A stretch of DNA of 64,000 bases, from contig CAJVZZ010000001.1 in the NCBI GenBank assembly GCA_913020435.1, positions 172,105-236,104 of the forward strand, in the 5' to 3' direction. Positions within the stretch are counted from its first letter, which is position 1; every line of letters starts with the position of its first letter. A program made the translations under genes and the position numbers. The DNA comes from an uncultured Flavobacteriales bacterium. GTDB taxonomy: Bacteria > Bacteroidota > Bacteroidia > Flavobacteriales_G > Salibacteraceae. A model generated the notes under the pieces. The model ran no database searches. It had not been told where the DNA came from and saw nothing but the letters and a program-made list of their open reading frames with translations. Shown here piece by piece: positions 9,853-62,976 of this stretch.

Positions 9853-9883
9853 ATTAATCTGCGCTTTTTATCGCCAGATTAAT
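9853..9883. repeat. perfect 9-bp inverted repeat downstream of the ATP-grasp gene
   Basis: ATTAATCTG at 9853-9861 pairs with CAGATTAAT at 9875-9883 around a 13-nt loop. It starts 11 bp beyond the ATP-grasp stop. AT-rich and without a T tract, so more likely an attenuator, RNA-stability element or chance than a full terminator. Confidence 0.3.
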
Positions 9884-9893
9884 AGGAGTTCGC

Positions 9894-11399
9894 TTACATC
9901 ATTTTAAAACCACCAATTTCAGCAACTTTATCTTGAATTTGATTCACTTGAGTAGGCTCAACTGATTCAAATTTATTTTGGATAGCCGCTAACCATTTTT
10001 TCGATTTTTCAGTAAGATTAAAGTTGTCAGTCATCATTCTTCCTCTCATTACCAAAATACCTAAATCGGCACCCTCGTAAACGTAATCACCTTCTTTCAT
10101 TATCCGCAAGAAAAAGGCTTCATCATCACCATCAACTGATCTTCGATGTGTATCCATCCTATCGTAATCAATAGACCCGTCTTCTTTCATTTTCCAAATA
10201 CCCGATTTAGGAGCGCGTGTCACTTGTTTGATAGTATCATCGGTATGTTTGATGACCATTTGAGCCCATGAATCAATGTTTTCTGGACGTGCCCAACGAC
10301 GATTTAGTTGATCTACATTTATCTCATAATCAACATCCATGAATTCCAAAATATGGAACAAAAACAATGGAACATCTGCCAAGGCAAATACTGCATGATT
10401 GGTAATAGAACTAGCCCCAGTAACCCTAGGGTTCAGTTCTCCAAGATACAATTCATTGGTATCTGTATCTATTAAAAAGTCAAGTTCAAAATAGCCCTTA
10501 TATCCTTCTTTTAATAGTTGATCACCAAAAAGGCGTGTATATTTTCTAGCCTTGTCACGTATGGATTTTGTGAAACAATCGGCATAAATTTCATTTCCAC
10601 ACCAGCCACCTTTGTAAGGAGTAAGCTCTTTGAATCCAACCAGTTCGGTCATAAGTGGAGCTACAACAGTACCATGCTTCGTAACGCATGCTTCAATAGC
10701 TGATCCCATACAGTTGATCCGCTTCATGACTTTTACCTCTTTTTCAGCTTCAATTTCTTCAGCGTGTTTATTGTAATCCTGTTCAGTTTTAATGAAGAAA
10801 GTAGTATGTCCACTATCACCAAAAGGAGTTTGAACAACCCAGTCATGACCTAGTTTATCACCTTTCTTTTCTAAATCTTTATAACTACTAATTTTGGTTA
10901 AAACGTTTGGTACACAAGGTACTCCAGCTTTTTCGGCAACACGATTGGTGATTACTTTATTATCTAAATCGTTTCTCAATTTAGCAGTTGGAAATGCTAC
11001 ATCTAAACCAATTTTCTTGGCTAATTTCTCGGTCTTTTCATCAAACATCAAGAAAAGCGCTTTGCCTTTGTTTTTTCCTTTTGCTCTACTTTGAATGTAA
11101 TCGACTACCTGCTTGTGTTCAAGCATATAATTATTGATATCCTCAATACTTTGAAATTCATCATGTGGAATTTCATCTGGAGAGAACACATTTGGGTGCT
11201 GACCATCAAAACATTCTATATAACAAATGAACTTAAATCCTTTTACCCATTCATCGGCTCCCAATAAGTTGAAATTAGTAGCACTAATGAAATAGATTGG
11301 AGTTTCATTTTTATAGAAAAACCTTCGGATATCTGAAATACCTTTTAACGGTTTAGTGCGTTCATTTACCTTTTTAGAAATTTTCTTTTTAGCGGCCAT
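9894..11399 (-). CDS. ATP-grasp ligase (biotin carboxylase-like, substrate unknown)
   Basis: A 501-residue ATP-grasp enzyme. Residues 140-200 carry the nucleotide-binding part (WVVQTPFGDSGHTTFF at about 187-202), and 303-308 (YFELDF) plus 320-325 (GELNPR) give the acidic and Asn residues that bind magnesium and ATP. The C-terminal ~100 residues (ADLGILVMRGRM) resemble the end of carboxylase-type ATP-grasp proteins. Databases tend to call such proteins biotin carboxylases, but no biotin-carrier gene or domain is near, so an amine or amino acid ligase is equally possible. The N-terminal 20 residues are Lys-rich. It lies 136 bp downstream of the GT9 gene in a co-directional block with a PLP decarboxylase and a nitrilase-fold enzyme. 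Confidence 0.82.
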   Translation of the reverse strand: MAAKKKISKKVNERTKPLKGISDIRRFFYKNETPIYFISATNFNLLGADEWVKGFKFICYIECFDGQHPNVFSPDEIPHDEFQSIEDINNYMLEHKQVVDYIQSRAKGKNKGKALFLMFDEKTEKLAKKIGLDVAFPTAKLRNDLDNKVITNRVAEKAGVPCVPNVLTKISSYKDLEKKGDKLGHDWVVQTPFGDSGHTTFFIKTEQDYNKHAEEIEAEKEVKVMKRINCMGSAIEACVTKHGTVVAPLMTELVGFKELTPYKGGWCGNEIYADCFTKSIRDKARKYTRLFGDQLLKEGYKGYFELDFLIDTDTNELYLGELNPRVTGASSITNHAVFALADVPLFLFHILEFMDVDYEINVDQLNRRWARPENIDSWAQMVIKHTDDTIKQVTRAPKSGIWKMKEDGSIDYDRMDTHRRSVDGDDEAFFLRIMKEGDYVYEGADLGILVMRGRMMTDNFNLTEKSKKWLAAIQNKFESVEPTQVNQIQDKVAEIGGFKMM

Positions 11400-11535
11400 A
11401 GTGTGTTTTTTAAGAAGCTAAAAAGTACAAAATTTTGACTACTCGAATTAATTTGTTAGGGCATAAATATTTTATTCTGGTTTGTTATTGGTAAGAGTTG
11501 GTCTAAGTGTCAATTATTATTCAAAGAGGCTTAAT

Positions 11536-12747
11536 CTAGCGATGCACAATCCCTAAAATATCTTGTTCAGTTTGATATATTATTGGTTTTATTGAGGTCG
11601 ATTTTTGAACTTTAGAAGTATTTAAAAGTGCTGCTATGTTTTCATTGACTTCGTCAACACCAATGAGTTGCATGCAGATGTTATTGCCATTACAAGGTGC
11701 AATTTCAAAATCGTGAACACATGGACTACAATAAGTGTTCTTGTAAATTACATGTGCGTTATCACTCCTGCCGTATTGATCTGGTGAGCAAGGTCCAAAT
11801 AAACAAATCACTTCTTTTTTTAATGCAAAAGCCAAATGCATTGGTCCAGTGTCGTTTGTGATTATTATTTCAGCACTGTCGATTAATGCAATAACCTCTG
11901 ATATCGAAGTTTTACCAGCTGTACTTATTAATCTTGTGTCATTGATTATTGTCGAAATTGATTCGGTATATTCTTGTTCGGCTTTGCTGCCAATAAGGAA
12001 GATATCGTAGTCGGAAAATTCATTGAGTGTTTTACGTATAATTTGGATAAAATTGTTTGAATCCCAGCGGCGTTCTAATCTAAGATCTGATGAGTTGGGA
12101 TTGATAACCAAATATTTTCTAGTATGAGAAAAGGGTTTTTGAATTGATTTTTTCAAAGGATATAATTCTTGATATTCATCATTACAGCCTATAAGCTTAG
12201 CCATTTGTAAGTAAACATTTGAAATGGGCACCTTGGGGTTGAAAAACATCATGTGGGTATAAATTCCCATTCTAAAGGAACTTGAACGCAAGTAAAAGCC
12301 AACTCGATTAGTGGATAATGAGAACAGGGTGAAAAGAGTAGAGAAGTCAGAATAAATTTCTAAATCAAAATAGACTCCTGGGCGCTTTTTAATTAATTGA
12401 TAAAGTGCTAAAATATTGGAAGTTATAAAATTGATTAAACTGCTTTCATCAATCGTTATGATGGTATCAATATGATTAATTTTTTCAAGAATTGATCGAT
12501 TTGCTTTGGTGCTAACAAAAACTAATTCAGAATTAGGATGTTGAACTTTTACAGCAGCAAGCAGCGGTGTAGCTTGTATAATACTGCCCATTCCTTTGAA
12601 TTTGCATACCGCTATTGTTTGATATTCTCTTTTTAAATCATGATTGATGGAAAGTATTTGCCCTAAGGCTCTTACTATGAAATTCAATGAGAATGCTATC
12701 GGCTTAGCGATAAAGGAATCAAGGAATATTTGATGCTTAATATTCAT
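11536..12747 (-). CDS. glycosyltransferase family 9 (heptosyltransferase-like)
   Basis: A 403-residue GT-B protein. The N-terminal KFKGMGSIIQATPLL (49-63) is the GT9 acceptor-side motif, NPNSSDLRLERRW (216-228) the interdomain motif, and TNDTGPMHLA (297-306) with LFGPCSPDQYG the donor-binding signature of ADP-heptose:LPS heptosyltransferases. A C-terminal cysteine cluster (CSPC, CNGNNIC) is common in this family. It acts on the cytoplasmic face, transferring a sugar to a lipid-linked acceptor. Its start overlaps the end of the large membrane-protein gene by 11 bp, so these two form a pair, probably in surface glycan assembly. Confidence 0.88.
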   Translation of the reverse strand: MNIKHQIFLDSFIAKPIAFSLNFIVRALGQILSINHDLKREYQTIAVCKFKGMGSIIQATPLLAAVKVQHPNSELVFVSTKANRSILEKINHIDTIITIDESSLINFITSNILALYQLIKKRPGVYFDLEIYSDFSTLFTLFSLSTNRVGFYLRSSSFRMGIYTHMMFFNPKVPISNVYLQMAKLIGCNDEYQELYPLKKSIQKPFSHTRKYLVINPNSSDLRLERRWDSNNFIQIIRKTLNEFSDYDIFLIGSKAEQEYTESISTIINDTRLISTAGKTSISEVIALIDSAEIIITNDTGPMHLAFALKKEVICLFGPCSPDQYGRSDNAHVIYKNTYCSPCVHDFEIAPCNGNNICMQLIGVDEVNENIAALLNTSKVQKSTSIKPIIYQTEQDILGIVHR

Positions 12748-15574
12748 TTCTAATATCTTGATAGAAGTTTAAAGCACCAATTGAAAATGCTTCATTTTTA
12801 GGAACTCTGATATGCGATACGGAAGTATTAAACCAACCCCAGTGATTGCTTATTGGAACTATATAATGCAATTGATTTGGTGTGATATCGAAATAGGTGG
12901 TACCTAAATAAATTGAGTCATTAAACACATCAATTTTAAATTGATCGTCCCAATTCACTTGACCAAGCTCAACTTTGATTAGGACTCGTTCTTTGTTTCT
13001 AATCTCCTGTCCAATATTGAATTCAATAAATTGATCGCTGGTCTGATTAACTTCTGCATTTTTTAGGAGAACTATTTTGTCATTTATATTCTCGTTGTAA
13101 TAGGTATTTAGAAAACGCGCAATCTGTCCGTATTGATATGTTTTTGCTTTTGGTATTGCCTGAGCTTTCAGAGTATCTCTGCTTACTATTTTCTTAGATT
13201 TCGATATCCAAATTGCCCTGTTGTTAATTATCTGATAAGGTTGATAGTTTTTGTGAATGAATTCGATAATCATATTTTGGCGCATGGCATTGTGTATGCC
13301 ATCTGTAGCATCCCACCATGATACAGGATAATTTGAATAAATAACCACAGGTATCTTAGCGGTATCTAATTGATTTAATTGTTCATTTTGTAAGTACTCG
13401 TCTATGGTGTTTTGTAGATTTTGACAGAAATACGATGGAACCTCTCGCTGGCAATAGTAGTAGAGCATTGGAGAATTTGAAAAATCATAAAACGTTTGTT
13501 GTTCTGTCAAATTTTCATCTAAAAACATTTTAAAATCAGTGTGATTTTCATCTGCAAAAGGAGAGGTATTTAAAATTCTTCCTTCAAATTTTTCATTGAA
13601 TTGATTATCCAGATTGGCAATAGAAGATTTTTCTAAGAAGGTATTAAGGGTTGTTCTGTCTTTACCGATTGAGTAATATTTTAAACCGAAAATAGAGAAG
13701 AACCCGATAAGAAAAAGCTGTAAGAAAACAGCGTTTTTTCCTTTTTGCTGAATAAGGCTAATGACAAATAAAGAGATCCCAAGAAACAGAGTTGAGATTA
13801 AATAGAAATCTTGTTTCTCCATAAACCCATGTCGCACAAGGCCGCGTTGGAAATTGAATAAATAAATCAATAATAGAAATAGGGTTGTGCTCAAAAGAAA
13901 CTTTTCATTCCTAGAGGGATTGGAACGCAATCTAACAGAGGCAAGTATTATTAATCCAATACTCAGTAAAGGAAAAATTACATGGTGCAGAAAGTATTGT
14001 TGGTTAAATTCATAGGCTAAACTGGATAATCCATGCGCTTGTCCGCCGGAGAAGTAATGCAAAGCAATTGATATGTTTCCAAAAATATATTCTTGGGACG
14101 TGAGCAGAGCTAAGACGAACAATATTGAAATTACAAATGCTGAAAAAAGTACAGTTGACTTTAGAAGATTTGGAATCTTAATTTTTTCCGTTTGCGTAAA
14201 TAGTATTATCGGAATGAAAAATACTACTGCAGATACAGTTGCGACTCCCGTGTCTAATCTCCAAAAACAGATTGCAGACAGTATTAAAAATAACAAAAAG
14301 TAATTTTTTACAGATTGATTAGCGGCTAGTTTATCAATATGAAAGAAAGCAATAATACCCATGAATAAGTAGGTGTTGAAAAGCTCAGGAACTAAAGGAA
14401 ACGTCAGAATGAATACGAAAGCAATTAAATCGGAACGAAATAATTTCTTTAGAAAAAAATAGATAATGAAATAGAGTACTATGGAATTAAAGAACTCGTA
14501 TATCATAAATTCTAAAGTTCCAGAGTAACCAAAAATTAGATGATAGATTATTCCATACCACTGTTCAGAAAACATATGTGAGGAAAGAAAATCAACAAAA
14601 GGAATTTCATGAAATTTAAAAATGCGCAGTTGAGAAACAGCGGGGTTGGCTAACTCAAATAGTTCATGAGGTTGCTCCATAAATGGAAGAAAATCAATCA
14701 GTAAAACAAAGGTTGCAATCGCAGAAGGAATAAAGAAATAGGAAAATAGTTTTTGTGTTGGAATGTGTGATTTTTTAATCGATAAATAGGTATTCCAAAC
14801 GATTAAGCACCCGGCGATTAGTCCGATGAAAACCGATTTATAAGAAGTGTTTATTCCAGTTTCTATTTTTTGATAAAAAAGGAACTCAACAGAAAAGAAG
14901 ATAAGAAGGGGTACTAGAAAAAGTGGAAGTAAACGAGTGAAAAATGAATTAGATTCAATTTTAAAGAATCGATTTAACATATAATGGAGAGCAATAAAAG
15001 CTGTGAAAACGAGCGCAAATGAGGTGATCCCATTTTTAATTATTTCATCTGTAGAATTAGTTAGAAATAATACGATTCCGTTAACGATTAAACTTAAAAC
15101 TAGTAATCGTAAAAGTAGAGTCGGCTGGACATAATATCGAGGAATAATCTTTTGCTGTTGAAGCAGGAAAAGAACATAACAAGCACAAAGAATAAAAGCA
15201 ACAAGCTGAATAACACTTAAGAATTCAATACCATATAAGTGAGCTAGGATCAAAACTGAACCAATACCAGCACCGTTTTTCAGAAAAAGCCATTGGTTTA
15301 AACTGAACTGAGTATGTCTGGCCACTTTTGATTGCAACAGATACAATCCAATAAGTAGGATCGTGAACCCGAATAAAACGGTGTAGAATAGTTTAATTCG
15401 TTTAGAAATATCAATTCCGTTTGCACTTGCTTCACTAATAGTTATGTGCGAGATTTCATCCAGAATGAAATTAGAATTTCCAAAAAGATGTAATAGAATG
15501 AATAATGATGCAAAAAGAGAAGTGAAAACCAATTCACTTTTCTTTAATCCTATAAATTCAGTGCTAAAAATCAT
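12737..15574 (-). CDS. large polytopic membrane protein, possible GT-C glycosyltransferase
   Basis: A 945-residue protein of unrecognised family. About two thirds (residues 15-640) is a succession of hydrophobic helices, fifteen or more, and the last 300 residues form a soluble domain. This is the layout of GT-C glycosyltransferases, which use polyprenyl-phosphate sugars on the outer face of the inner membrane. A possible acidic first-loop motif near residue 50 (LDEISHI) fits that idea but is not diagnostic. The gene overlaps the GT9 gene by 11 bp and starts 18 bp after the decarboxylase gene. It and GT9 interrupt an otherwise soluble-enzyme block. Function is inferred only from topology and neighbour. 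Confidence 0.75.
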   Translation of the reverse strand: MIFSTEFIGLKKSELVFTSLFASLFILLHLFGNSNFILDEISHITISEASANGIDISKRIKLFYTVLFGFTILLIGLYLLQSKVARHTQFSLNQWLFLKNGAGIGSVLILAHLYGIEFLSVIQLVAFILCACYVLFLLQQQKIIPRYYVQPTLLLRLLVLSLIVNGIVLFLTNSTDEIIKNGITSFALVFTAFIALHYMLNRFFKIESNSFFTRLLPLFLVPLLIFFSVEFLFYQKIETGINTSYKSVFIGLIAGCLIVWNTYLSIKKSHIPTQKLFSYFFIPSAIATFVLLIDFLPFMEQPHELFELANPAVSQLRIFKFHEIPFVDFLSSHMFSEQWYGIIYHLIFGYSGTLEFMIYEFFNSIVLYFIIYFFLKKLFRSDLIAFVFILTFPLVPELFNTYLFMGIIAFFHIDKLAANQSVKNYFLLFLILSAICFWRLDTGVATVSAVVFFIPIILFTQTEKIKIPNLLKSTVLFSAFVISILFVLALLTSQEYIFGNISIALHYFSGGQAHGLSSLAYEFNQQYFLHHVIFPLLSIGLIILASVRLRSNPSRNEKFLLSTTLFLLLIYLFNFQRGLVRHGFMEKQDFYLISTLFLGISLFVISLIQQKGKNAVFLQLFLIGFFSIFGLKYYSIGKDRTTLNTFLEKSSIANLDNQFNEKFEGRILNTSPFADENHTDFKMFLDENLTEQQTFYDFSNSPMLYYYCQREVPSYFCQNLQNTIDEYLQNEQLNQLDTAKIPVVIYSNYPVSWWDATDGIHNAMRQNMIIEFIHKNYQPYQIINNRAIWISKSKKIVSRDTLKAQAIPKAKTYQYGQIARFLNTYYNENINDKIVLLKNAEVNQTSDQFIEFNIGQEIRNKERVLIKVELGQVNWDDQFKIDVFNDSIYLGTTYFDITPNQLHYIVPISNHWGWFNTSVSHIRVPKNEAFSIGALNFYQDIRNEY

Positions 15575-55848: not shown

Positions 55849-57240
55849 CTAAATACTCGAAACAGTATTTGTTTCTCGATTAAATTCCATAATTTTTGTC
55901 AGTTTGTTGGTTCTTATAAAATGGCCGATAATTCCTCGCGAGTCTTTGTCGTCTTGCATGGTTTTGATGCTATCCAAAATTTCTGAAATAGAAGGATTTT
56001 CTTCTTCCGATAGTTCACCAATCCCAAGGTAAGAACCATTTTCAATAGCAATAACATGTTTCGTATTCTTTTCAGGTCCTGGTTCAATAATCAATAGGTT
56101 TCGATTGATAAACCGCAGATTTTCTAATGCATTTTCGACTTTTAAATTGTAGGTGTCTGCTTCTTCATGACACAGCGCAGCGCCTTCGCATTGTTGTGTT
56201 CCAAAAAACAGACAACCTCTGCTGCATTTTTGCAAACCAATCATACCTAAGCACAGTCCAAATTTCTGAGAAAATAGTTCCAAATAGCTTTTAGTTTCTG
56301 CTATACTAGAAAAAGTAGAAATTGGCTTATGATGCGCTTCAAGTTTTACTGGTCTTAGCAAATGGTAACCAAATAAATCATGTTCTTCAATAATTCCGAA
56401 AGGAAATGAACTGCGCTTAAGTGCTACGTTATATTTTGGCTTTAGGTTTTTTATTTCTTGCGATTCCTTCAGTAAGGCCACAATTTCAGATCCCGTAATT
56501 TCGTATGAAATATCCGCAACTTCGGCATGCATTTTTATTGCTTTTTGAGTCTTTGGTTGTCTTAAATGATTGAATAACCGAGTGCGAAGGTTGGTGCTTT
56601 TTCCAACATAAATAACGTCTTTGTTTGTGTTGTACAAATAATACACTCCAATCTTTTTTGGAATATTCAATACTTTTTCCGGATCTAATTCTGAGTGCAA
56701 GTAGTTAGATAGCTGAATTTTTGGTTTGAGTTTAAGTCCAAATTCAGGATCAATAGAGTAGAGTAATTCGAACAGTTTTACGGTGGCTTTTGCGTCTCCA
56801 GCTGCACGATGTCGACCATCTAAATTAATCCCCAATTCACTCGTTAATTTCCCAAGAGAGTAGGAGCGGTGTCCAGGAATAAGCAATCTGCTCTGTTTGA
56901 CTGTACATAATTTTTTGCGCTGAAAATCGTAGCCCAGTCTGTCAAATTCTTCTTCCATAAATCCGAAATCAAAATTGACATTATGCGCCACAAAAACGGC
57001 TGCATCTGTTATTTCCAGAATCCGCTTGGCTACTTCATAAAATCGCGGTGCATCGGCAACCATTTGGTTGGTAATTCCAGTTAAACGACTTATATCATGA
57101 GGAATACTCGTTTCTGGATTTATTAAACTTACAAACTCGTCAACAACTTGTTTTCCATCGTGTTTGTAAATCGCTATTTCAGTAATTTTTCCACGATGTT
57201 TGCTTACGCCAGTTGTTTCAATATCTATAATGCACCACAC
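55849..57240 (-). CDS. DnaQ-like exonuclease fused to a GIY-YIG nuclease (UvrC/Cho type)
   Basis: A 463-residue two-nuclease protein. The N-terminal 160 residues are a DEDDh exonuclease (Asp6-Glu8 in DIETTG, Asp91 in HNVNFD, His144 and Asp149 in GRHRAAGDA). A GIY-YIG domain starts at about 198 (GVYYLYNTNKDVIYVGKS) with the UvrC-type LRTRLFNHL. The remaining region has a cysteine set (CLGMIGLQKCSRGC, CEGAALC) that may bind metal. Relatives in Bacteroidota and actinobacteria are thought to act in DNA repair. Start is a GTG. The -7-like TACATTTG at 57252-57245 ends five bases before it. Confidence 0.92.
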   Translation of the reverse strand: MWCIIDIETTGVSKHRGKITEIAIYKHDGKQVVDEFVSLINPETSIPHDISRLTGITNQMVADAPRFYEVAKRILEITDAAVFVAHNVNFDFGFMEEEFDRLGYDFQRKKLCTVKQSRLLIPGHRSYSLGKLTSELGINLDGRHRAAGDAKATVKLFELLYSIDPEFGLKLKPKIQLSNYLHSELDPEKVLNIPKKIGVYYLYNTNKDVIYVGKSTNLRTRLFNHLRQPKTQKAIKMHAEVADISYEITGSEIVALLKESQEIKNLKPKYNVALKRSSFPFGIIEEHDLFGYHLLRPVKLEAHHKPISTFSSIAETKSYLELFSQKFGLCLGMIGLQKCSRGCLFFGTQQCEGAALCHEEADTYNLKVENALENLRFINRNLLIIEPGPEKNTKHVIAIENGSYLGIGELSEEENPSISEILDSIKTMQDDKDSRGIIGHFIRTNKLTKIMEFNRETNTVSSI

Positions 57241-57387: not shown

Positions 57388-57882
57388 TTGAAATTAAAAG
57401 TATTACCTATTTTATTTGTGTTTTCATTTATCGCTCTCTTTGTTGGAATTGCTCAAGAAAGTAGATTAGAAGTACTTTCTAGTGCTAGCGAAGATGTTAG
57501 AGTCGATAATTATCAGCTTTCTTACACGGTTGGAGAAACAATTTCAATTACTCAAGGAAATCGTTATTACTTTGTCACTCAAGGATTTCATCAAGTTGAA
57601 TGGAACGCTGTTGCAGTCTGGGAATATACTCCCGAAACTGTTAGAATTGAGGTCTTTCCAAATCCATATTCAAGAAGTCTTAATATATCATTTCCTGACT
57701 TTTCGGGTATCGAATTATTTCAGTATCGGATATTAGATTTAACCTTTAAAGAAGTTGCAGAGGGGGATTTAGAGCAAGCCGAAAACAAGTTAGAATTATC
57801 CTCTTTACCTCCGGGAAGTTACCTTCTGAATATAACCAAGGACCAAGAATTAATTAAAACATTTAGAATCATCAAAATCTAA
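57388..57882 (+). CDS. small T9SS-sorted exported protein
   Basis: A 164-residue protein with a TTG start, a signal peptide (to about residue 22, ending GIAQE), a middle (YQLSYTVGETISITQGNRYY, then FVTQGFHQVEW) that is common in Bacteroidota secreted proteins preceding a sorting domain, and a type A T9SS C-terminal domain (FPNPYSRSLNISFPD onward). No catalytic motif. The long repeat protein begins 5 bp downstream, so the two form an operon and may be surface partners. Confidence 0.85.
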   Translation: MKLKVLPILFVFSFIALFVGIAQESRLEVLSSASEDVRVDNYQLSYTVGETISITQGNRYYFVTQGFHQVEWNAVAVWEYTPETVRIEVFPNPYSRSLNISFPDFSGIELFQYRILDLTFKEVAEGDLEQAENKLELSSLPPGSYLLNITKDQELIKTFRIIKI

Positions 57883-57887
57883 TAAAT

Positions 57888-60800
57888 ATGAATTTCAATT
57901 TTAACCATATTTTAAAATCTGCTCTTGTGGCAATTTTTATTTGGCTAACTTTAGATATGAGTGCACAGTCTGCTTATGAGGGAATTCGTTACCAAGCGAT
58001 TTTAAGAGATGGTTCAGGATCTATATTAAGCAGCCAGAATGTGAGTCTAAAAATGACTATTTATCAAAAAGGTGATCTTGTAAACGGATATATTGAAACC
58101 CATGCAACAGTTACTAATATAATAGGGCTTATTAACCTTACAATTGGTAATGGGATTCCAATTCAAAATACTTTTTCGAGTATCAATTGGGGGAAGTCTA
58201 CTTCTAATCCGTTTTTTATTAAAATAGAATTTAGTGATAATGAAGGAAGCACCTTCTTGACCTTTGGTGAATCTCAACTATTGTCGGTACCATATGCGAT
58301 GTATGCGAAAAATGTTGAAAACATCAATGATGCTGATGCAAATCCTCTAAATGAGATTCAAGATTTATCTTTATCTGGAAACATTCTTGAAATCTCTATG
58401 AACTCAGCTTCTACTTTAATTGACTTATCTCCATATTTGGATAACACAGATACTCAATTGCTTTCATTTGGGGTCAATGATACCTTGCAACTAACAAATG
58501 GAGGGAAGGTTTATTTAGGAATATACGATATAGACACTCGTCTTAAGGCTCATATAGCCCAATATATATTAGATCAGGCAGCATTAAAATTAAGACTCCA
58601 GAATTTAAGTGACTCATCGGCAACTAATTATTCTACAGGACAAAGTAATAGCTTTAGGATTCAGAATGACAGTAGTAGATTAAATCAAGCGGAAAATGAT
58701 TTAAAAGATACGCAAGATTCAGTATCGATTTTATATACTGGAGCTTTCAGAGACTCTAGTCTAACGAATGAGCTTCAGAATATATTAATAAATGTATCTA
58801 ATGATTCACTTCTAATTTCGGACGGACAAGGCATAGCGTTAAATAAATTATTTCAAATACAGAGCATTTCTATTGACTCTCTTTCAGATGCTTATAATGA
58901 CACTAATCTCAATTTAATAATAGGCTCTAAACCAAATAATCTTGTTAAAAGTGGTACTAATAGTGCTAAGAATAATGTAGGTATTGGAAATGAATCATTT
59001 AGAGATAATACAACTGGGTCTTATAACGTGGGTATCGGTATCGGAGCTTTAAATAAAAATACTACTGGTGGATTAAATAGTGCTATTGGACAAGAAGCTC
59101 TGCAATCTAATAAAGTAGGAAATGAGAATACAGCCATTGGTAGGTTTGCACTACAGGAGGCTAATGCAAATGGTAACACAGCCATAGGAGCAGAGTCATC
59201 AGGGTCAAACACAACAGGACAATTTAATACATCAGTTGGTCGGTTCTCATTAAAATCTAATAAAAATGGATCTGACAATTCTGCTTTAGGAAGTAATGCA
59301 GATGTTGCAGATACGAATCTCTCATATGCAACTGCTATTGGTGCAGGAGCCATTGTAAAAGCCTCCAATACGATTCAATTAGGTAGTAGTTCCATAGATT
59401 CAGTTGTTACTTCAGGTAAATTAAAATTGGGCAATGTTATTTATCCAAACACGGATGGTACAAATGGCCAAGTATTGGTTACTGATGGTAGTGGAAATCT
59501 AAGTTTTCAAGATACAGATACCATTGGAGTAGTTCCATACACTGGCGCAATACAAGCGGTGAATCTAGGTGCTTTTGACTTAACTGTAAATAGTATTAAA
59601 ATTGGCCTAGGTTCTGGGAATATTGCTGGAAATACTGCCTTAGGATACGAAGTCCTAAATGCAAATACCACAGGAAGTAATAACACAGCCTTGGGATCAT
59701 ATGTCCTTGAGGCAAACACCACAGGAAGTTATAACACAGCCTCAGGAATAAATGCCCTAAATAAAAATACGATAGGAAGCGATAACACAGCCTCAGGATT
59801 TAATGCCCTATTGCAAAATACTACAGGAAGACAAAACACAGCCTCAGGATCATATGCCCTAAAATCAAACACCACAGGAAATTATAACACAGCCTCAGGT
59901 TATCTCGCTCTAACTTCAAACACCACAGGAAATGAAAACACAGCTTCAGGATCATATGCCCTAGAATCAAATACCACAGGAAGCTATAACACAGCCTCAG
60001 GAACAAATGCCCTATTTATAAACACCACAGGAAGTGATAACACAGCTTCAGGAGCATATGCCCTATATAAAAACACCACGGGAGATAATAACACAGCTTC
60101 AGGATCATATGCCCTATATTTAAACAATACGGGAAGGTCTAACACAGCTATTGGATTTGCGTCCCTAGAAAATAACACCACAGGAAGTTATAACACAGCC
60201 TCAGGACAAAGTGCCCTATATTCAAACATCACAGGAAAACATAACACAGCCTCAGGATTTCAGGCCCTACAATCAAACACCACAGGAAACTATAACACAG
60301 CCTCAGGATTTCAAGCTCTATATAGAAACACCACAGGAAACTATAACACAGCCTCAGGTTATCTAGCCCTATTTAACAACACCATAGGAAATAATAACAC
60401 CGCCGCAGGACGGAGTGCCCTACATTCAAACACCACAGGAAATGATAACACAGCCTCAGGATATTTTGCCCTATTTTCAAACACCACAGGAAATAATAAC
60501 ACAGCCTCAGGAAGGAATGTCCTATATAATAACACCACAGGAATTTATAACACAGCCTCAGGAGGGTATGCATTAGAGCAGAACACCACAGGAAGTCAAA
60601 ACACAGCCTCAGGATATGAATCTCTAAATAAGAACACCACAGGAGCTAAAAACACAGCCTCAGGAACAAATGCCCTATTTTCAAACACCACAGGAAATAG
60701 CAACACAGCCTTAGGAATGAATGCCCTAAAATCAAACATCACAGGAAGTTATAACACAGCTTCAGGAGAACGTGCGCTATATAATAACACCACAGGAAGA

Positions 60801-62648
60801 CATAACACAGCCTCAGGTTATCTAGCCCTAACTTCAAACACAACAGGAAATCAAAATACAGCCTCAGGACAGCAAGCCCTATATTTAAACACCACAGGAA
60901 GTGGTAACACAGCCTTGGGATACCACACCCTATACGGAAACTCAACGGGAGCGCATAACACAGCTGTAGGAGAGCGTGCCCTGCATGTAAACAGAACAGG
61001 AAATGATAACACAGCTTCAGGCTATTTTGCCCTATATAAAAACACCACAGGAAATAAAAACACTGCCTCAGGACGGAATGTCCTATATACTAACACCACA
61101 GGAAGTTATAACACAGCCTCAGGAAGTTATTCTCTAGAGAAGAACACCACAGGAAACTACAACACAGCCTCAGGAATATATGCCTTAAATAAAAACACTA
61201 CAGGAAGTTATAACACAGCCTCAGGGTCATATGCCCTATTTAGAAACACCACAGGAAAAGAAAACACAGCCTCAGGATATGAAGCTTTATATAGAAACAC
61301 CACAGGAAACTATAACACAGCCTCAGGAATGTTTGCCCTATTTAGCAACACCACAGGAAATAATAACACCGCTGCAGGACGGAGTGCCCTATATTCAAAC
61401 ACCACAGGAACTCAAAACACAGCCTCAGGATATGCAACCCTAGAGAAGAACACCACAGGAAATAGCAACACCGCCGCAGGAACGAATGCCCTAAATAAGA
61501 ACACCACAGGAAGTTATAATACAGCCGCAGGAGTGTATGCCCTGAATGTAAATACTACAGGAGCTAAAAACACAGCCTCAGGATATGAAGCACTATCTTC
61601 AAACACTACAGGATTTAGCAACACAGCCTTAGGAACGAATGCCCTAAATTCAAACACCATAGGAAGCTCTAACACAGCCTCAGGAGAATATGCCCTAAAA
61701 GCAAACACCACAGGAAGTTATAACACCGCCTCGGGACGGAGATCCCTATATACGAGCACCACAGGAAGTTATAACACCGCCTCAGGATATGAAGCCCTTT
61801 ATAAGAACACAGGAAGTTATAACACAGCCTCAGGAATATTTGCCCTATTTAACAATACCACAGGAAATTATAACACATCTTTTGGGTCATATGCCCTAGA
61901 GAAGAACACCACAGGAAGGCATAACACAGCTATTGGATATGGGGCAGATCTAACAGCAGGAGCGTTGAACAATACCATAGCTATAGGATATAACGCAAAA
62001 GTTTCAAGCTCAAATACTATTCAATTAGGTAACAGTTCCATTGATTCAGTTGTTACCTCTGGCAAGTTGAAACTGGGCAATGTTATTTATCCAAACACGG
62101 ATGGTACAATTGGTCAAGTATTGGCAACCGATGGCGCAGGAAATGCAAATTGGATTGCGCCGATGCCAAATGTTACCAGGAGTATTGTAATTGCACCAGG
62201 TATGTTTCCAACGGAAGCATTTACCGGTTCAACAACTAAGAAAAATACCGTGGGAGGCTGGGGACTTCCAGTTATTGAAATGGCAACCAATGTAAGTGGT
62301 CAAATTGCAATGTCTGTGCCTCTTCCAAGTGACTGGGTTGCTGGTACAGGTGTGAAAATCAAATTAATGTATAGTAATAGTACTAATTCGGGAAATATTT
62401 CCTTTCGCTTTGGGAGTGCAAAATTAGTTGAGAATTCATCAACTAGAACAGGGACAAGCAGCAGCACAGTTTCGTTAAGTGTTTCTTCAACTGTATATGG
62501 ATTGAAGGAATATAGCCATTCTATTTCTATGAACTCTACAGAAAAAGTTCTGCATTTTTATCTGAGAAGACAAGGGACGAATTCATCGGATACCAACAGT
62601 GGAATTATGTTTATTCACGGTGTAAATTTAGAATATACTTCTAGATAG
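57888..62648 (+). CDS. giant surface protein with 45 tandem 17-residue repeats
   Basis: A 1586-residue exported protein. Signal peptide to about residue 27 (DMSAQ). N-terminal domain (about 30-145): the Bacteroidota YQAILRDGSG, TIGNGIP and LLSVPYAMYAKN pattern. A coiled-coil-like stretch lies at about 205-300. Residues 358-480 are irregular copies of the repeat, and residues 582-1345 are 45 copies of NTASGxxALxxNTTGxx. Almost identical segments flank the array (IQLG-SSIDSVVTSGKLKLGN and GQVL-TDG). A unique C-terminal domain (about 1430-1586) follows and I see no T9SS sorting domain. The repeat resembles the YadA/tail-spike type of beta-roll or solenoid, so a trimeric fibre or adhesin is likely (inference). 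Confidence 0.85.
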   Translation: MNFNFNHILKSALVAIFIWLTLDMSAQSAYEGIRYQAILRDGSGSILSSQNVSLKMTIYQKGDLVNGYIETHATVTNIIGLINLTIGNGIPIQNTFSSINWGKSTSNPFFIKIEFSDNEGSTFLTFGESQLLSVPYAMYAKNVENINDADANPLNEIQDLSLSGNILEISMNSASTLIDLSPYLDNTDTQLLSFGVNDTLQLTNGGKVYLGIYDIDTRLKAHIAQYILDQAALKLRLQNLSDSSATNYSTGQSNSFRIQNDSSRLNQAENDLKDTQDSVSILYTGAFRDSSLTNELQNILINVSNDSLLISDGQGIALNKLFQIQSISIDSLSDAYNDTNLNLIIGSKPNNLVKSGTNSAKNNVGIGNESFRDNTTGSYNVGIGIGALNKNTTGGLNSAIGQEALQSNKVGNENTAIGRFALQEANANGNTAIGAESSGSNTTGQFNTSVGRFSLKSNKNGSDNSALGSNADVADTNLSYATAIGAGAIVKASNTIQLGSSSIDSVVTSGKLKLGNVIYPNTDGTNGQVLVTDGSGNLSFQDTDTIGVVPYTGAIQAVNLGAFDLTVNSIKIGLGSGNIAGNTALGYEVLNANTTGSNNTALGSYVLEANTTGSYNTASGINALNKNTIGSDNTASGFNALLQNTTGRQNTASGSYALKSNTTGNYNTASGYLALTSNTTGNENTASGSYALESNTTGSYNTASGTNALFINTTGSDNTASGAYALYKNTTGDNNTASGSYALYLNNTGRSNTAIGFASLENNTTGSYNTASGQSALYSNITGKHNTASGFQALQSNTTGNYNTASGFQALYRNTTGNYNTASGYLALFNNTIGNNNTAAGRSALHSNTTGNDNTASGYFALFSNTTGNNNTASGRNVLYNNTTGIYNTASGGYALEQNTTGSQNTASGYESLNKNTTGAKNTASGTNALFSNTTGNSNTALGMNALKSNITGSYNTASGERALYNNTTGRHNTASGYLALTSNTTGNQNTASGQQALYLNTTGSGNTALGYHTLYGNSTGAHNTAVGERALHVNRTGNDNTASGYFALYKNTTGNKNTASGRNVLYTNTTGSYNTASGSYSLEKNTTGNYNTASGIYALNKNTTGSYNTASGSYALFRNTTGKENTASGYEALYRNTTGNYNTASGMFALFSNTTGNNNTAAGRSALYSNTTGTQNTASGYATLEKNTTGNSNTAAGTNALNKNTTGSYNTAAGVYALNVNTTGAKNTASGYEALSSNTTGFSNTALGTNALNSNTIGSSNTASGEYALKANTTGSYNTASGRRSLYTSTTGSYNTASGYEALYKNTGSYNTASGIFALFNNTTGNYNTSFGSYALEKNTTGRHNTAIGYGADLTAGALNNTIAIGYNAKVSSSNTIQLGNSSIDSVVTSGKLKLGNVIYPNTDGTIGQVLATDGAGNANWIAPMPNVTRSIVIAPGMFPTEAFTGSTTKKNTVGGWGLPVIEMATNVSGQIAMSVPLPSDWVAGTGVKIKLMYSNSTNSGNISFRFGSAKLVENSSTRTGTSSSTVSLSVSSTVYGLKEYSHSISMNSTEKVLHFYLRRQGTNSSDTNSGIMFIHGVNLEYTSR
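59631..61922 (+). repeat. 51-bp tandem repeat array, 45 copies
   Basis: From AATACTGCCTTAGGA to just before AACACAGCTATTGGA, 44 units of 51 bp and one of 48 bp fill the span without gaps. AACACAGCCTCAGGA is the commonest first third and AACACCACAGGAA the last third. The 48-bp unit (about 61803) lost one codon. Longer blocks of three or four adjacent units recur, such as those at units 14-16 and 33-35 and at 20-23 and 38-41. Confidence 0.95.
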
Positions 62649-62703
62649 TATTTCGTTATTTAGATTGGCTGAATTGGATTAGAGCTAAAATAAATATTGT
62701 GCG

Positions 62704-62976
62704 TATTAATGTGGCATTATACGGTGTGCTGAAATCACGTCCAGTCACATTTAATTGGAAAGAAGCCCTTCAACAGGAAAATATATTATTACCATTACCG
62801 GAGTTGCAGTTGTGAGTCAACAGACTTGAGTAGCAATGGTTGTAACCTAGGCAAATAGCAACGGAAGAACTGCAACCTATGAATTTACAGGAAGTACCTT
62901 AGAAGTATATATGTGGCAAGGCAATACGAATGCAACTGTGGCTAATGCTTTTTCTTTTCTTTTATTTAAACATTAA
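62704..62976 (+). pseudogene. C-terminal remnant of a secreted-protein gene
   Basis: One frame reads SPSTGKYIITITGVAVVSQQ, a TGA, VAMVVT, a TAG, then ANSNGRTATYEFTGSTLEVY, MWQGNTNATVANAFSFLLFK and a final stop at 62974-62976. The strands look like the C-terminal jelly-roll of Bacteroidota tail-fibre-like secreted proteins. Two in-frame stops and no start make it a pseudogene. It may be the leftover tail of a gene related to the repeat protein upstream. Confidence 0.6.

Follow-up and report, generated by a model that had tools for sequence, protein, structure and literature searches.

Among the described systems that resemble the fibre reported here, the mosaic adhesive trimer (MAT) fibres of Bdellovibrio bacteriovorus stand out. 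Their N-terminal domain of about 130 residues has no homologue in the PDB, and the surface element that holds it awaits identification (Caulton et al. 2024, PMC10769870). Three other systems are relevant: phage tail fibres built of NTAxG repeats, the trimeric autotransporter adhesins of the YadA type (type Vc), and the gene pairs in which an adhesin with a type B C-terminal sorting domain (CTD) adjoins a PorP/SprF shuttle of the T9SS (PMC12618676, PMC9143113).

The locus described here lies in a 64,000-nucleotide stretch of DNA, referred to below as the window, from a 2.95-Mb Flavobacteriales genome assembled in 50 contigs. It consists of a long fibre gene and, directly upstream, the gene of a small T9SS protein (Table 1). 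Like the Bdellovibrio MATs, the fibre has a beta-rich base of similar size after a signal peptide and a long shaft, and it belongs to a group with exchangeable S74 or non-S74 tips and many paralogues per genome. It differs from them in its N-domain match, which lies below the family cut-off, in its giant array of 17-residue units and in the absence of the capping-loop motif. It also differs in having a T9SS protein as its neighbour, of which the main text of PMC10769870 makes no mention. The short-period repeats and the head followed by a neck-like module recall YadA, whereas the fibre has no YadA anchor, stalk or matching head profile. As in the PorP/SprF pairs, the genes are adjacent and one protein would decide the surface fate of the other. 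In those pairs, however, the CTD is on the adhesin, whose partner is a membrane shuttle, while here the CTD is on the small partner and the large protein has none. We consider it probable that the locus is a two-gene surface-fibre unit, consisting of a MAT-like fibre and a small T9SS-tailed partner that places the fibre base in trans.

Table 1. Features of the fibre locus, with positions in the window.
Feature	Position	Strand	Basis
Exonuclease/GIY-YIG gene, synteny anchor outside the fibre system	55849..57240	-	Flank kept in relatives
Small T9SS partner, 164 aa: signal peptide, ~65-aa beta domain (57448-57651), type A sorting domain (57652-57858)	57388..57882	+	TIGR04183, PF18962; homologous domain beside CTD-less fibres in relatives
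Fibre protein, 1586 aa	57888..62648	+	ORF call; sister-species orthologue with 89% N-domain and 88% tip identity
Sec-type signal peptide (aa 1-27), no lipobox	57888..57968	+	Read from sequence; same position before N-domain in relatives
MAT-like N-terminal beta-rich domain (base), aa 28 to ~141	57969..58310	+	Alignment; AF2 pLDDT 80, pTM 0.71; NF053851 27.3 bits, E 4.6e-6
Stalk region, Asn/Asp/Ser-rich, no predicted fold	58311..58964	+	Translation only; similar stalks in relatives
First head: short divergent NTAxG-type repeat run (mini-array)	~58965..59362	+	Repeat register, translation
Neck/linker module, copy 1	59363..59505	+	143-nt direct repeat, 84% identical to copy 2
45-unit, 51-bp array: 44 x 17 aa + one 16-aa unit	59628..61919	+	TRF, unit register; AF2 of last six units, pLDDT ~80
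Array cap, degenerate units	61920..62008	+	Unit register
Neck/linker module, copy 2	62009..62151	+	143-nt direct repeat, 84% identical to copy 1
Tip domain, ~160 aa, predicted all-beta	62160..62645	+	Found in 5/41 relatives; alignment; AF2 pLDDT ~65, weak CBM-like matches
Peptidase_S74 chaperone-domain remnant, behind fibre stop, untranslated with fibre	62669..62812	+	S74 profile E 5e-4
Second decayed coding remnant, two in-frame stops, possibly former tip	62755..62973	+	Translation; weak match to locus L036

The fibre ATG lies 5 nt past the stop codon of the partner gene. An earlier note on this DNA had described the fibre as lacking a T9SS sorting domain and its operon partner as having one, and profile scans agree on both counts. 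No type A or type B CTD was detected in the fibre, and the tail of the partner scores 26.4 bits against TIGR04183 (cut-off 23) and 37 bits against Pfam PF18962. The source genome also encodes PorV, the T9SS shuttle family (E 2.9e-118). What the earlier note missed is the mini-array, the two neck/linker modules, the separate tip and the remnants behind the stop codon, together with the MAT-like N-domain and the conserved pairing of a CTD-less fibre with a small T9SS protein, of which its operon partner is one example. The architecture, as read from the sequence, is that of two heads: a copy of the neck/linker follows each of the two arrays, and the divergent mini-array is the older of the two. 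The flanks hold ordinary chromosomal genes (DEAD-box helicase, exonuclease/GIY-YIG, oxidoreductase) in a synteny that is kept in five relatives, and no virion genes are found among the neighbours.

The N-domain, comprising the first ~115 mature residues, is present in 38 of 41 relatives, with one to ten copies in each. A plain hmmscan of the fibre protein reported no MAT_N match. When the N-domain was scored with NCBIfam NF053851 (Bdello_MAT_N, "mosaic adhesive trimer family chimeric fiber protein"), it gave the value listed in Table 1, and the relatives gave 29-44 bits, all below the curated cut-off of 60 bits. We therefore use the label MAT-like instead of MAT. At E <= 1e-3, the same profile hits 66 of the 74 related fibres. 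Applied to six genomes, it recovers the N-domain loci found with the fibre's own N-domain, including the fibre gene itself, and it matches none of 14 control genomes. By sequence comparison, then, the N-domain is a distant homologue of the Bdellovibrio MAT N-terminal domain, though not one to be filed as a MAT. Its position immediately after the signal peptide is a MAT feature, borne out by the alignment and by the AF2 model, which predicts a beta sandwich with a C-terminal helix. A fold search of the PDB with this model returned no convincing match (best E 3e-3, TM 0.38), in agreement with the lack of a PDB homologue for the MAT domain, and a sequence search of the PDB returned no relative for the repeat, the base or the partner. 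The loose MAT capping-loop motif, present in 32 of 111 relatives, is absent from the fibre. This absence, the negative plain hmmscan and the sub-cut-off scores (27-44 bits versus 60) count against our reading.

To examine the pairing we searched with the small domain of the partner stripped of its sorting tail, using a profile built from 15 fibre-adjacent cases. The 41 relatives hold 115 N-domain genes; 67 of them have the small T9SS domain less than 900 nt upstream, at a median domain-to-domain distance of 276 nt, and at other N-domain genes it lies just downstream. Conversely, 67 of the 96 small domains are upstream of a fibre, and many of the remainder are just downstream of one. A survey of ORFs placed the partner directly adjacent to 78 of 111 fibres (~70%), upstream in 64 cases and downstream in 14, and found a T9SS tail on none of the 111 fibre ORFs. 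Of the other fibres, one has a slightly overlapping partner, seven belong to tandem clusters that have a single partner, eight are truncated at a contig end, one is a fragment, and about 16 are complete and have no adjacent partner. Two of the tandem clusters, at loci L047 (1711-10569) and L034 (1736-7321), hold five and three MAT-like fibre genes, respectively, each with a single small T9SS partner. A distant fibre at locus L161 (1309-6816) has a C-terminus that looks by eye like a T9SS tail and matches no profile; it is a possible exception to the rule that fibres have no tail in cis.

Since the small-domain profile was derived from 15 fibre-adjacent cases, 50 other genomes of the phylum were tested. 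The N-domain was found in 10 and the small domain in 4 of the resulting 51 genomes (own included). Leaving the own genome aside, each of the four small-domain matches has an N-domain gene next to it, and the small domain is missing from all 41 genomes that lack the N-domain. A T9SS-tailed neighbour is present at most of the 17 N-domain loci of this sample, with three loci having no clear one. At three of the 17 the partner tail is of type B (TIGR04131, 49-70 bits); these partners, at loci L151, L155 and L157, lie downstream of the fibre. Of the arguments for the importance of delivering the partner by T9SS, the strongest is that the pairing outlasts the change of tail from type A to type B. 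PorV occurs in 10 of 10 N-domain genomes, but also in most of the others. In the source genome sorting tails are found at 125 places, and 4 of its 5 fibres adjoin a short T9SS-tailed gene, which is far from chance because only roughly a dozen of the tails are on short ORFs. Partner and fibre also diverge together (Spearman 0.45, versus 0.15 after shuffling partners within genomes; p = 0.002), although co-divergence is expected from linkage alone and is no proof of contact. A search of the open-access literature found no description of such a gene pair.

The main rival to our reading is that the two genes are merely co-transcribed, the small T9SS protein acting independently and the fibre being held by another route, for example its own outer-membrane base, as is presumed for the Bdellovibrio MATs. 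Those fibres are displayed on the cell surface (PMC10769870), apparently with no T9SS involved. The ~16 complete fibre genes without an adjacent partner fit this rival and, with the three phylum loci, weigh against our reading; the co-divergence, too, would follow from linkage alone. On the other hand, the pairing survives a flipped gene order as well as the change of tail type, and the small domain is nearly confined to fibre neighbourhoods and absent from genomes that lack the fibre domain. Mere co-transcription appears rather unlikely to us. A further point against our own reading is that Bdellovibrio has MAT fibres and is not known to have a T9SS, so the anchor of its MATs must differ. As to how the partner would work, we suggest, with slightly less than even confidence, that in Bacteroidota a small, dedicated protein sorted by the T9SS binds the base of the CTD-less MAT-like fibre and, acting in trans, brings the fibre to the outer surface or keeps it there.

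The repeat of the array is a common phage tail-fibre repeat. It was found in 98 phage records (Synechococcus, Pelagibacter and Roseobacter phages among them), where the genes bear the label tail fibre or structural protein and identity is mostly ~40%, and also in 22 IMG/VR loci, the best of which reaches 71% identity. The PHROG tail spike and virion protein profiles (PHROG 4636, 6002, 23837) match the fibre at 1e-135 or better, whereas a scan with Pfam and NCBIfam profiles matched no family (Pfam at E <= 1). The best IMG/VR segment belongs to an S74 tail fibre with very similar NTASG arrays on the viral contig L125 (4113-5183), and phage fibres with this repeat often have an S74 end. The repeats may well be of phage origin. 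The shared repeat, the profile matches and the S74 remnant might suggest that the whole gene encodes a phage tail fibre and was taken up from, or left behind by, a prophage; this is very improbable. The gene has a signal peptide, a MAT-like base and a T9SS partner, an arrangement that the phage fibres lack, the flanks are chromosomal and syntenic in five relatives, and no copy of the tip domain was found in viral contigs. Two IMG/VR contigs, L121 (5476-7428) and L124 (5521-6717), carry the same pair of a small T9SS-tailed protein and a MAT-like fibre; the pair may travel with phages, or else the contigs contain host DNA.

The earlier note had compared the repeat to a beta-solenoid or a YadA-type head. 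The first comparison holds in the AF2 model of a single chain containing six units, cap, neck and tip, in which each 17 residues contribute one short strand (pLDDT ~80 in the array, ~65 in the tip). The second is not supported in the sense of family membership: Pfam finds no YadA head, stalk or anchor at E <= 1, and the closest repeats are those of phage tail fibres. In a Foldseek search the array and tip model matched phage tailspikes, lambda gpJ and Bdellovibrio Bd2133 (8ond) as well as carbohydrate-binding modules, but every TM score, taken over the whole query, was low; we take these modelled similarities as hints only. The monomer already forms a regular solenoid, and the array could accordingly function as a single-chain solenoid in some other capacity, such as surface layer spacing, ice binding or matrix formation, instead of belonging to an adhesive fibre of three chains. 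We regard this as most unlikely: relatives that share the base terminate in modules that are obligate trimers, and the MATs and phage homologues with solved structures are trimeric (PMC10769870). The end modules identified in 74 related fibres were Peptidase_S74 (17), collagen (11), Lcl_C (11), phage Collar (4) and C1q (1), and we infer that the fibre is likewise a trimer. Least probable of all, with next to no chance in our view, is a YadA-type (type Vc) adhesin: the NTAxG repeats and head-then-neck order resemble YadA heads and Pfam YadA_head matches one of the 74 relatives, but YadA head (PF05658), stalk and anchor are absent from the fibre at E <= 1, it ends in a non-barrel tip, and the missing anchor refutes membership.

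TRF reports the array as 44.7 copies of period 51, with a higher score for a period of 153 nt, or three units. When placed in register, the array comprises the 45 units given by the earlier note, all of 17 residues except unit 43 (61770-61817), which has 16, followed by a degenerate cap. Pairs of units are on average 70% identical in nucleotide sequence. The longest exact repeat is 40 nt, no 41-mer being repeated within the array, so that a short-read assembly is able to resolve it; an assembly artefact is thereby ruled out as its origin. Blocks of units recur, with units 12-16 matching 31-35 and units 16-19 matching 27-30, and the maximum for blocks of three to five units exceeds that of shuffled unit orders (p = 0.003-0.008). 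This supports the expansion by multi-unit recombination that had been proposed. The variation in array length that had been proposed for strains is seen between species, the orthologue in a sister species of the same genus (a marine Crocinitomicaceae MAG) having 17 units and a cap. Units 2-4 match their positional counterparts in that array at 0.88-0.90, while interior units mostly find their best match among other units of their own array, indicating that the edge units are old and the interior has turned over. A third species of the genus keeps the locus with an N-domain 68% identical and a different shaft and end. The nearest named relatives, identified through a three-sequence tip alignment, are the marine Crocinitomicaceae MAGs PAME01000003 and PAVO01000040.

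The codons of the array are uniform, as the earlier note had observed, yet they are not those preferred by the genome. GCC accounts for 70% of its Ala codons and CTA for 73% of its Leu codons, compared with 12% and 14%, respectively, in the other genes of the window. Codon bias is thus rejected as the cause, and because these codons are rare elsewhere in the window, their uniformity in conserved columns points to recent amplification. Columns 2, 3, 4, 6, 10, 13, 15 and 16 of the unit are nearly fixed, and amino-acid change is mainly restricted to columns 1, 7, 8, 11, 12 and 17. These show 0.58 differences at codon positions 1+2, against 0.18 at third positions of the conserved columns. Given that codon uniformity marks recent copying, replacement exceeds synonymous change in the six variable columns, which we read as diversification of positions that are presumably exposed.

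The tip is predicted to be all-beta, with weak Foldseek matches to carbohydrate-binding modules and to Bd2133 (8ond). The weakness of this model (pLDDT ~65) and the modelling of the fibre as a single chain are further points against our reading. No S74 domain is present within the fibre protein. The remnant behind its stop codon shows S74 similarity in its first 38 residues and is shared with the sister species, with 58% amino acid identity over 38 residues and 84% nucleotide identity over 118. The simplest reading of the sequences suggests that the fibre once ended in S74 and that a new tip with its own stop codon was inserted before the two sister species split. An alternative is the loss of a separate downstream S74 gene, such as is still present at locus L020. 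In that locus (9879-14000, from the third species of the genus) two proteins come after the fibre, one an S74 protein and the other by eye resembling a phage tail Collar protein. In the sister species (locus L039, 10751-11230) the S74 remnant has behind it a short ORF resembling an Lcl_C-type tip, as though stray pieces of tips gathered past the end of the fibre gene.

Under the two-gene reading, the fibre would be exported by Sec, with the beta-rich N-terminal domain forming the base, followed by the stalk. Two heads of 17-residue beta-roll repeats of the phage tail-fibre type would extend it into a long rod, at the end of which a putative beta-sandwich tip probably binds glycans. The small partner, with its beta domain and T9SS tail, most likely binds the fibre base and positions the fibre on the outer surface in trans. 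Recombination between units would lengthen or shorten the array and so set the reach of the fibre, and the six presumably outward columns would be diversified. The tip would be exchangeable, an S74 chaperone tip having probably been lost here before the sister species diverged.

What is new at this locus is the combination of a MAT-like fibre, a phage-type repeat and a T9SS protein acting, as we propose, in trans. The array provides a clean case of a shaft that changes length by recombination while its putatively exposed positions diversify. The conserved pairing offers a concrete candidate for the surface element of the MAT base in Bacteroidota. If our reading is true, the small protein would be that element for MAT-type bases in this phylum, and the T9SS would display a protein that has no sorting signal of its own. 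This would explain how trimeric fibres without a T9SS signal arrive at the surface in a phylum whose T9SS displays many adhesins, and it would link phage tail fibres, predator adhesins and the surface fibres of Bacteroidota through shared modules.
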